From: Rhea pennata
Lineage: Eukaryota > Chordata > Aves > Rheiformes > Rheidae
Length of the DNA stretch: 64,000 nucleotides
Reading direction: 5' to 3'
NCBI RefSeq assembly: GCF_028389875.1
Contig: NC_084666.1
Location: 65,604,422-65,668,421 of the forward strand
Part shown: one piece after another, positions 20,101 through 58,932 of the stretch
How the letters are laid out: the number at the start of each line of letters is the position of its first letter
How positions within the stretch are numbered: the first letter of the stretch is position 1
The notes under the pieces: model-generated
The model's database searches: none
Told to the model about the DNA's origin: nothing
What the model saw: only the letters and a program-made list of their open reading frames with translations
Program-made: the position numbers and the translations under genes

Positions 20101-23100
20101 ATGTGTTAGGGGACTCCATAGCCAAGACTCTTCATAACTGGAGATGCTGATTAGGTGTCTGTGTGTGTATGTATATCAAGGCCCTACCCGCAAGCCTTAA
20201 ACTATGGCCATAAGAGTTCTATCTCTGGTAACTTGTTTGAGAAACTATCACAAGAACAGTAACCAACACATTTGGGGAGACCTTTTAAATAGATTGATTA
20301 TAAAAGTCAGAGAAGCCATGTTTTAAAGAGACTTGCATTTTTTTGAGAGTAACAAGATCTACCTGAATCCAATATATAACTAAGCTTCTTGAACTACAAG
20401 ACAAAAGCAAAATTCAGGAGTGTCCCCAAATGTGCCTGTTACTATTTTTGTCTAAATAAATTCTCTAGCTTCAAGAAAAAAGCATTCAGCAAGAAGTACT
20501 TGGCTTGAAAGAAGAGCTGAGCCAGGCACAAAGGAAGTTGCGTGAAATGGAGGAAATGAAGACCAGTGAATCCACAGAGGAACCTGAGAAGATGGGGAGA
20601 ATAGACTTTACTCCAAAACTGTGTGACTGTCAGGACATGAGCACTGTAACAGGAGGAGATGATGATCTCAAAATACAACTGAAGAATCTGCAAAATGAGA
20701 GAGATCAGCTCAGGGAAACCATACAGGAGATAAATAGCACGGTAAGAAAAATAACCTGATTCCTTTAGGACTACATCTTTTAGAAAACTTCTCTCCTAGT
20801 ATTTAAGTGTTACGTAGGCTTAATGTGCTTTAACTCTCTTATGTCCAAAGAATTCAGAGATGCAGGAGAAGTTGAGATGTGCTCATAACTCTCTCAAGCA
20901 ACATCAAGAGACTATTGCAGAGCTAAAAGGAAGTATTTCAGAGAAAGAAAGTCAACTCCTGACAGTGCAAGAGGCATTGAGGAAAACAACTGATGAACTG
21001 AAACAACAGGTTGGATGTAGCTTTTCTCGAGCAAAACAGAAGTTCTGTCAAGATTGGCGATTCATGTCCTGGGTAGATTTCATCCTAAAGGGTTCAATAA
21101 AAATGTAGTAAAGGGTACTTAAAGGCCTTTATTCTGCCCCCCCCAACTGCTTCCCAGAAGAATTCCATAAAAATATAAAGGAAGTGAAAAGATGATCAAA
21201 CTGCAATTTGAATCACAATTATAATTGCAAGTTACAAGTCAGGTTGAAGGTTGAAATATTTGACATCACTGCCTCAATATATTTTTGAAGTCTTAAACTT
21301 TTAATATTTTACATGATTGATAGTATGTTATCTTTCAGCTATGTAACTGAAAATATTCTAGCAACTAAAAAACAACATGGTTCTCTTTAATTTGCTGCAT
21401 TATTATAAGTTATAAGTTTGTCTGTGACTACTTTTTATTATTCTGGCCTTTAGAACATTAATACTTGTTTGAATGAAGCCTGTTTGCCTGTTTCTGTGAG
21501 TTTATAATGAGCTATAGGTTTTCATGTAAATGAATGGGTGTACCAATGAGACAGAAGCATTGGAATTTGACTAAGCTTCAGCAAACTGGTCACATCCTTC
21601 TTGGTTTGTTTAACAGAAAACATCTCATTCATTTAACTTTATATGTAATGATGATGATGTAATTATCTGTAGATATAGACAGTGTTTGAAAAATATCCAA
21701 TAACACTTCCTCAAATCAAAACTTAATTTGGAGAAAATGATAGCTTTCTAATTTATTTTGGGGGCTGAAGTAGCTCAACTGGGCGAGTATTAGACTGAAG
21801 ATCTAAAGGTCCCTGGTTCAGGCCCGAGTTTCAGCAAGGGGGGTCCTTGTTGCTCCTTCTCTGGAGATATTCAAAGCCCGTCTGGCTGCAACCCTGTCTA
21901 ACATGCTCTAGGTGACCCTTCTTGAGCAGGGGTGTTGGACTAGATGATCTGCAGAGGTCCCTTCCAACCTTACTAATTCTGTGATATGTTTCATTGTTGC
22001 TATCATTATGAAGTTATTTCTACCTATGCTATAGATGATTCATGATATTAATGCCAATCCCTGTTTGTTCTTTCAGTTCACAGAAGTAACTGAAAACCTG
22101 GCTCGTGTTTCTTCTGAATATAGCAAGCTACTGGCAGAAAAAGAGCAAACTGAACAAACAATGAATGACCGTATTTGTCAGCAGCTTGACAAAATCACTT
22201 TGCTTAATCAAGAAAGAAATGAGCTTCAGCAAATGGTAGAGTGCTTTAAAGTAGAAAGAGATGAGTTAGAGGCCAACTTTCACGAAAGCAAAGAGAAAGT
22301 ATGTATCAAACCTCTTAAATGTTCATGCTTTAAAGCCAGGCTATGCTATTCTGAAGGTTTGTGTTTGTCTTGAAGCCTTCTGTTCGGTGTCTTCCTCTCT
22401 CCTGTTTTTAGCTGGTTTAGGATATTGGAATCTTTGGTTCTCTCTCTGCTACTCTGGGTTTAGACAACTGTTTGCCACCTACTGGACAAGTACTCTCCAA
22501 GTTTTTTTCATCTACAATAACTTTACATTTAGCACTGAATGGTAGAGGTACTTTAGGTTTATTGATATCTAGAGGCCCAAGTCTGCTACCACTACAATCC
22601 ACAATGAGCTGATGAGGAGAAAGCTAACCCAGAAAGATGGATGCTCTATCACACTTCTACATGATGTTTTATTTTCATGGCAAAGTTACAACCTCATTAT
22701 TCTAAGTGTTTGCAAGGAAAGCGTGCTTATATTGACCCAGTATTTCAGACAAACTTGACCATATATGTAGTTAACAAATCAAGTTGTCTCCAAATTAAAA
22801 GGAAGCTGTGCAAATTCTTTTAAGTAGTAAAAGCTTTCGTGCAAATTTAGTTAATGGAACCACTAGTCTCTTATGAATGTGTATAGAACATCTATTTAAA
22901 AAGTAAAATCAGCAAACCTGAGACTATCAAATCTTTGTCATCAAACTAATCTTTCATTTTAGGTGTGGACCTCCTTCATAAACAGTTAATTTAAACAAAT
23001 TCTTGTATTTTGTGATAGTTGCCACATGGGTAAGAATGTATTACAGGTTTTCGCAAATATAGTCATCCACATTATCTGTTCCTTTAATATTTCCCTTCCT

Positions 23101-56880: not shown

Positions 56881-58757
56881 TAGCTTGCGTCTTTTTGTGG
56901 ATGATGCATGTTCTGGGTTGTTTTTTTCCCTTTTACCTAGTCACCTGCCACATGTACCGCCATGTTTTTTCTATTCTGAATGCCTGTTGTTCTGGTGGTG
57001 GTTGTGGTATTTTATTTATATTCCTTTCTGTGCTGTCTGTGTGGGCAGAGCAGAAGTGTTGGCAGTCACCAGGGCAATAGAGCTAATGACACAGGCACGC
57101 ACACGCTGCGCCTGTCACTCATCCTGGAGATCTGCTCTGCCTCGCTTTTCTACTTCCTCCAAATTAAAACCAAGTAAAATGAGGAGATCTAGCTTTAAAA
57201 ACCTATAATGAAAACCCTTCTAATTTCAAAAAAAGGAAAGTGTATTTTATAAGGTTCTATTAAAATAAGTCTGTTACTGGTTTGTTTCCAAGATACAGGC
57301 CTTAACTCTGTGGTATGAATTCTGCTCCGTGATTTCTTAATCTCTCTTGATTTCCGTTTGCACATGGGACTGAAGTTTTAAAACTAAATAAATAAATACG
57401 TAAAAAACCTGGCCTGAGCGCGTGCTTGTGAGCTAAGTACTCCCTTTGGTCTAATCGATCCAGCTAGCTGTTGCTGAAAAGTAACAGCACGGAGAACCTG
57501 CAAGGTCGAGGCCTCTGTGCAGAACGGAGAAGGACAGCGCACACAGTAGCAGACTCTCTCCCTCCCATGTTGAAACCATCCCCAGTAAACCGAAGCAGGA
57601 AATCCAGTCTCCTTGCTCAGTTTCTTTCCTTCCCTTTATACATACCCTGTTAGCAGTGCATGCAGGAGCTGGAGTTGTTGTGAGGAGGGCCCCTGTTCCT
57701 GAGAAGCATTAACCTAGTCATGTCAGCAAAAACATGGCCTGAAGAGTTGGGACATCCTTCAAGCAAAGCTAGATGCAGACTGTCATCATCTTCTGGTCTC
57801 CTCCGCCTCCAGAATTACAAAATTAAGAGCTAGTTCCCTGATGTAAAAGTAAACAGTAAAAGAATCGGTGTACAGGAGGAGGGAGAAACTAGGTTGCTCT
57901 CTAACCCAGAACACTGATATCTACAATTCTAGCTAGTAGATTGGCGTTCGTGGATTCCTGGCCACAGTGAAAAGACTGCACTAGCAAAATCTTGAACAAT
58001 CCTGTGAGGAAAAACAAAGATGATTATTTCACTGCAGAATTTTGAGACTGAAACTGTTTGATTCCACAAACAGTAATTAAAACATGGAAAAATAATTAAA
58101 TTTGAATGAATTAACAACTTAAACGTGAAAGAAAGTAAAACTATTGTATTAGAGCTACAGGCAAATAGTTTCAACATGTTCTGTGTTCTTTCTCTGTGCC
58201 TTAGCCTTATCTCAAACCAGTTTCGTATCAGAGCAACTCAGAAACACCCAGATCTTACAATAAATCCTGTCTTTGTTATTGGTGTCAATCCATCCTAGAT
58301 ATCACTTATATCTTTATAAACTGAAAGGTTGATAATTGTGAGAACTGGCTCTCTGACTTACTTCCAGTAATCTGAGAAGGAATGAATTTCTTGGCTCGAA
58401 GTTCTGGCTCAAATTGAGTGGTGCTTTTTATGGCCAGAATAATGTACTAGACTAAAAAGCAAAACAAAACTTTGTTGTGATAGAGATGAACACTAGCAAG
58501 GCTTGTCTTCAGATATGTGTATGCAACCCTTAGTGATTCAGACTTGTCAAAATACAGTAAATATTCTCTCATTTAGACACTCTTCATTTTATTCCACTGA
58601 TATATCTCTTTCTTGCATCATGTGACAAAAAGAGGACCTATTTGATTAAAGAGTAAGTACAATGACAACTACCCACATGAACTTGGAGCTTTCTTTCCCA
58701 CTCCCCAAGAGGTTTCTCCACAGGATATGAGCAACAAAGAAGAGCCCTTGGCCATAG

Positions 58758-58932
58758 CATCATAGAATCAGTAAGGCTGAAAGGGACCTCTGGAGATCTT
58801 CTAGTCCAACCTCCCTGCTCAGCAGGATCACCTAGAGCATGGTAGACAGGGTTGCAGCCAGGTGGGCCTCAAGTATCTCCAGAAAAGGAGACTCCACAGC
58901 CTCTCTGGGCAACCTGTGCCAGTGCTCTTAGC
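58758..58932 (-). mobile_element. CR1 LINE 3' fragment, antisense
   Basis: Begins CATCATAGAATCAGTAAGGC, the reverse complement of a CR1 3' terminus. It continues GGGACCTCTGGAGATCTTCT, then CCAACCTCCCTGCTCAGCAG, then CAACCTGTGCCAGTGCTCTT. It is well preserved compared with the 44.8-kb copy, so likely younger. Confidence 0.92.

Follow-up and report, generated by a model that had tools for sequence, protein, structure and literature searches.

Organization of the element in the window

The window analyzed here, a 64,000-nucleotide stretch of the Rhea pennata genome, contains a tRNA-derived head joined through a short linker to a tail derived from the 3' end of a CR1 retrotransposon (Table 1). 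ARAGORN called a single tRNA in the 64-kb window, tRNA-Phe with anticodon gaa, and Rfam matched RF00005 over the same interval (46.5 bits, E 9.4e-07), which was its sole match in the window at gathering score. The A box of the head, TAGCTCAACTGG, fits the form TRGYNNARNNGG, which we take to be the consensus. The tail consensus of the aligned copies described below matches a CR1 in locus L103 at 93.0% identity over 129 bp and the ordinary CR1 3' end found elsewhere in the window at 88.3% over 128 bp. The initial annotation, which had reported a nearly intact tRNA-Phe(GAA) cloverleaf, a consensus A box, and a CR1 3' tail fused to the tRNA, was therefore accurate in its description of the parts.

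An exon-like coiled-coil stretch (22077-22298, plus strand) lies 91 bp downstream of the element on the same strand. A PDB search with this stretch gave weak lamin coiled-coil matches only (best E, 0.082); the stretch may resemble CENPE.

Table 1. Positions of the parts of the window element, of a comparison CR1 end, and of related elements at other loci
Feature	Position	Strand	Basis or remark
Probable transcript start, GGGG	21760..21763	+	Sequence; adjoins tRNA position 1; putative start role
tRNA-Phe(GAA)-derived head	21764..21836	+	ARAGORN, Rfam
A box, TAGCTCAACTGG	21771..21782	+	Sequence; consensus form assumed
Anticodon GAA	21797..21799	+	ARAGORN, which places it at position 34
B box, damaged at position 58 (A to G versus family consensus)	21815..21825	+	
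16-bp family-specific linker, tRNA to CR1	21837..21852	+	Common to aligned copies; CR1 similarity starts 3' of linker
CR1-derived tail with one terminal ATTCTGTG unit	about 21853..21985	+	Sequence, CR1 comparison
33 bp absent from the short class	21854..21886	+	Alignment; consensus of 216 versus 183 positions
Ordinary CR1 3' end, for comparison only, outside the SINE	58753..58890	-	Similarity to family tail
Dimer in L034	L034 169-373	+	Asn ends at 241, Phe starts at 301
L138: tRNA-Asn, common spacer, tRNA-Leu, CR1 body	L138 32-431; C61:71772170-71772600	+	
L139 (5' to 3'): truncated tRNA-Asn, common spacer, tRNA-Ile-like unit, CR1 tail	C3:1449890-1450320	+	

Family size and dispersal

The 222-bp element was searched against the host genome (1,268,942,789 bases), and the best 40 of 4477 first-look candidates were scored. 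The resulting 42 matches comprised the window itself, 39 other places, and 2 short pieces, so that at least 39 further near-full-length places, with 84-91% identity, exist among the candidates scored. A search with 87 bp of head and junction gave 40 places from the best 40 of 890 candidates, overlapping in part with those of the longer query. The exact tRNA/linker/CR1 junction pattern matched 63 times in the genome, while its reversed control matched 0 times. The same pattern is retained in 12 of 39 copies of the 222-bp search set (window included, L043 left out), and the ratio 63/(12/39) gives a rough figure of ~205 junction-keeping copies in the genome; the total may exceed this because the 39 copies used are those closest to the window. 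In keeping with an element of birds, a head-junction pattern was found 0 times in IMG/VR viral contigs and 0 times in contigs of prokaryote genomes.

Sorted by coordinates, loci L001 to L077 contain 57 places that retain most of the element, and the alignment includes 54 of them. The remaining three (L043, L052, and L062) are real copies left out of the alignment; L052 and L062 are included in the divergence table, from which L043 is absent. The boundaries between head, linker, and tail are common to all 54 aligned copies, and the 3' ends of copies run into ATTCTRTG units. Beyond the dimer part discussed below, only three of the flank pairs compared across the 54 copies share sequence adjacent to the element, and neighboring repeats explain them.

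The structure in the window is what a single template-switch insertion, placing tRNA-Phe onto CR1 cDNA, would leave, and the initial annotation had named such a one-off event as one of two possible origins. The at least 39 further near-full-length places exclude a chance join and, together with the 63 exact junctions against 0 in the control and the general lack of shared flanks, leave a one-off insertion with practically no probability. The other origin proposed there, an avian family of tRNA/CR1 SINEs in its own right, headed by tRNA-Phe, is supported by the dispersed copies and their common tRNA-linker-CR1 junction, and the tens of copies with one junction that were to establish such a family are reached by the exact matches alone. 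A tRNA-derived head, a CR1 tail with an ATTCTRTG end, and dispersed copies with one junction are also the general features of tRNA/CR1 SINEs, so the window element is at the least a good member of this known kind. We consider it very likely that the window holds a decayed member of a tRNA/CR1 SINE family whose head derives from tRNA-Phe(GAA).

The searched genome also includes a 16,749-bp mitochondrial contig (C180) with a single control region ending in CAAA repeats. Rhea mitogenomes are described with a duplicated control region in the accessible part of PMC7720580; C180 shows one.

Sequence decay of the head

The family consensus head agrees with the vertebrate tRNA-Phe used as reference at 67 of 73 positions, and the window head agrees with the same reference at 61 of 73. 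The six family-level differences include G70 to A and a compensated pair, A7 to G with T66 to C. Relative to the family consensus, the window head has eight further differences, among them C3 to T, and it has lost the A58 of the B box that the consensus keeps. Head positions 3 and 4 form a CpG in the inferred family consensus; T at position 3 (18/38 long copies) and A at position 4 (17/38) are the two products of its decay. In CpG columns of the aligned copies, 45-48% of cells have changed.

These data bear on the acceptor stem, where the initial annotation had pointed to a C-G pair that had become T-A on both sides. The T-A pair at 3-70 is indeed present in the window copy; its reading as one coordinated change does not hold, and a single compensatory event was rejected, because A70 is already in the family consensus and T3 is a product of CpG decay. 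As an old family change combined with later CpG decay, T3-A70 provides no evidence of selection on the window copy.

A working tRNA-Phe gene lying by chance beside a CR1 would be in keeping with the acceptance of the cloverleaf by both ARAGORN and Rfam, but the 12 differences from the reference tRNA-Phe in 73 positions, the damaged B box, and the genome-wide recurrence of the same junction make this reading exceedingly improbable. A functional tRNA-Phe gene with an intact internal promoter was likewise rejected on the differences and the B box damage. To judge from its damaged B box, the window copy is probably inert.

Length classes, age, and insertion hallmarks

Copies fall into two length classes, of ~220 bp and ~186 bp, and the shorter class is distinguished by a 33-bp deletion inside the tail. 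The 54-copy alignment contains 38 long and 16 shorter copies, the latter comprising 14 of the true short class, with the 33-bp deletion, and 2 truncated copies (L046 and L054); because a long copy served as the query, this alignment is enriched in long copies. Among 20 of the 63 exact-junction places, which form a less biased set, there were 17 short copies, 1 long copy (L134), and 2 copies with broken tails (L119 and L132). An association test on the 54-copy alignment, restricted to sites with the minor base in at least five copies, revealed no clear subfamily beyond the long, short, and dimeric forms; three site pairs reached p < 0.002, two of which involve the variable 3' end.

Non-CpG divergence from the consensus was 5.1% for long copies without the tRNA-Asn unit described below (n = 38), 5.5% for short-type copies from the junction pattern (n = 19), 4.2% for short copies found by similarity (n = 16), and 6.2% for dimers (n = 4), with 4.9% for the window copy. 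At an avian neutral rate of 1-2 changes per site per billion years, this divergence gives, as a rough figure, a family age of some tens of millions of years.

At least three G residues ending at tRNA position 1 are present in 18 of 46 monomers, and 20 of the 46 have none; such a run is the trace that a Pol III start at that position would leave. Flanking duplications, proposed at the outset as a check on insertion, are scarcely evident. None is visible at the window copy, and there is one clear target-site duplication, of 12 bp, at L050. Flanks share at least 6 bases in 13 of 49 copies, close to the 9.5 expected from shuffled pairing. A hairpin is predicted in the tail (z = -0.71 versus shuffles), and neither the tail nor the consensus head (z = -0.39) nor the window head (z = -0.66) folds better than shuffled sequences.

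Dimers and modular tRNA-Asn chimeras

Four of the 54 aligned copies (L022, L034, L038, and L041) have in common ~140 bp of extra 5' sequence, 78-83% alike, and their outer 5' and 3' flanks do not match one another. The extra part consists of a tRNA-Asn unit followed by a spacer, which in L034 measures 59 bp, about 52 of them up to TTTT. In L034 and L038 the unit was called as tRNA-Asn(gtt) by ARAGORN; Rfam placed a tRNA at the Asn-unit position in L034, L038, and L041; the assignment in L022, uncalled by both programs, rests on similarity. Comparison of the Asn unit with the whole of loci L001 to L117, the three copies outside the alignment among them, found no fifth dimer, and the unit was present in 0 of the 20 exact-junction copies examined.

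The genome was also searched with a query covering Asn, spacer, and part of Phe, and the best 40 of 1084 candidates were scored. Among these, at least six dimers match the whole Asn-spacer-Phe query (the four above, L142, and L143), and Asn plus spacer alone match at 34 places, of which 32 are on contig C140 (7.78 Mb) and 2 elsewhere. The Asn-Phe junction is identical in four of the six dimers and has one changed base in the other two, and the six Phe dimers probably have a single origin.

The sequences of four of the 34 Asn-plus-spacer places were examined (L138 to L141), and in two of them the Asn module precedes a different tRNA-like unit (Table 1). The tRNA-Leu of L138 was called by ARAGORN and scored 41.7 bits with Rfam, and the CR1 body that follows is 85% identical to L103. 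The unit in L139, which we take to be Ile-like, scored 26.8 bits with Rfam, below the gathering score of 29, and received no ARAGORN call. The Leu and Ile-like chimeras are represented by one copy each. At L140 and L141, both on C140, Asn and spacer are followed by sequence without a tRNA on that strand.

The Asn-plus-spacer copies of C140 are strewn over 4.4 Mb, and sequence downstream of the module is common to L140 and L141. Judged from these two, the C140 copies probably represent one insertion that was then multiplied, perhaps as an ampliconic repeat; W linkage of the contig is a guess.

In an alignment of ten Asn units, the common part ends with TTTT in seven, TTT in two (L139 and L140), and CCCCT in L038, and the partners diverge past the T run. 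Runs of T act as Pol III terminators.

One further combination occurs in L069, where a 5'-truncated unit, presumably tRNA-Pro-like and uncalled by ARAGORN and Rfam, is joined to a CR1 tail on the reverse strand (1236-1431). This element, seen in one copy, precedes a Phe copy of the short class by 69 bp, and its CR1 tail starts at the same tail base as that of the Phe family.

Proposed origin and acquisition of heads

The internal A and B boxes would direct RNA polymerase III to start just 5' of the head, and the CR1 reverse transcriptase would recognize the CR1-like 3' end of the resulting RNA and copy it into new sites. A template switch onto a tRNA-Phe transcript, made while a CR1 RNA was being reverse transcribed, may have given rise to the family itself, and the extra head of some copies could derive from a further switch onto a tRNA-Asn transcript with its trailer. 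Counting against this overall reading are the scarce target-site duplications, the folds no better than those of shuffled sequences, and the 20 monomers that lack a G at tRNA position 1. An Asn transcript that ended at its terminator would serve as the acceptor once the CR1 reverse transcriptase had reached the 5' end of another RNA and run off it. A switch of this kind during CR1-driven reverse transcription would explain both the several partners of the Asn module and its T-run end. There are precedents: LINE reverse transcriptases of several clades switch templates onto U6, with triple chimeras also described (accessible part of PMC4476161), and template switching has been put forward for the new head of PittSINE (PMC5729268, in the part available).

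We tentatively propose that a tRNA-Asn transcript with a ~52-nt trailer ending at its own TTTT was a repeated template-switch acceptor for the CR1 reverse transcriptase, stacked before tRNA-Phe/CR1, tRNA-Leu/CR1-body, and tRNA-Ile-like/CR1 sequences, and that one of the products was amplified as a dimeric SINE; we regard this proposal as close to evenly balanced, tilting slightly to the negative. Alternatively, the dimer of tRNA-Asn, tRNA-Phe, and CR1 may be ancestral, with monomers derived by transcription starting at the inner tRNA-Phe promoter. That order fits the one Asn-Phe junction found in all six dimers (exact in four, altered at one base in two), and by divergence (6.2%, n = 4, versus 5.1%, n = 38) the dimers are no younger than the monomers, but four dimers are too few for ordering the two forms. 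Dimers are also scarce (4 among L001 to L117, 0 of 20 exact-junction copies), and the other partners of the Asn module indicate that it can be added. We regard an ancestral dimer as unlikely. If repeated switching onto tRNA-Asn is correct, SINE heads are modular here, and the genome preserves intermediate steps of SINE birth; the Asn-headed relatives hint at how elements gain and stack tRNA heads.

Comparison with known SINEs and chimeras

Reports of CR1-mobilized SINEs are limited to some birds, for which Ottenburghs et al. 2021 is cited (PMC8665684, accessible part). A family with a tRNA-Phe head may already have been named and described, and a tRNA-gene survey across many birds may well have come upon an excess of tRNA-Phe copies. 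Nevertheless, a search of the open-access literature by title and abstract start found no avian tRNA-Phe/CR1 SINE, and we give prior description somewhat less than an even chance. The dimeric and modular forms represent a variant of which no report was found in the same literature.

The closest comparison is with TguSINE1 of passerines, reported at roughly 2000 copies (Suh et al. 2017, PMC5729268), which likewise has a tRNA head and a CR1 tail with an 8-bp ATTCTRTG repeat; an RT-binding hairpin is described in the TguSINE1 tail. TguSINE1 differs in its tRNA-Ile head and passerine host, whereas the head of the rhea family is derived from tRNA-Phe; the tails of TguSINE1 and PittSINE come from CR1-X1_Pass and are marked by four diagnostic nucleotides. 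PittSINE of Old World suboscines also combines a tRNA head with a CR1 tail, and its new head has been explained by template switching; its head is tRNA-Asp rather than tRNA-Phe, and no dimer appears in the accessible part of its description (PMC5729268). The statement in the initial annotation that passerine heads are tRNA-Ile derived thus applies to TguSINE1 but not to PittSINE. In the literature consulted, conclusions on the birth of CR1-mobilized avian SINEs are drawn from these two families, and rhea monomers, dimers, and single chimeras with a common module boundary would open the study of SINE birth and re-heading outside passerines. Insertions of the family could also act as presence/absence markers for palaeognath relationships.

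ManaSINE1, GymnSINE, BuceSINE, ManaSINE2, and MeloSINE, all mobilized by AviRTE, resemble the rhea family as lineage-specific avian SINEs with varied heads, but their tail is a bipartite AviRTE tail (PMC4844689, accessible part), whereas that of the rhea family is CR1. U6/L1 and other snRNA/LINE chimeras share with the rhea elements a small Pol III RNA placed 5' of another retrotransposed RNA, an arrangement explained by template switching (PMC4476161, in the portion available). In contrast to those chimeras, the acceptor in the rhea would be a tRNA-Asn with its trailer, and one product became a multicopy dimer.
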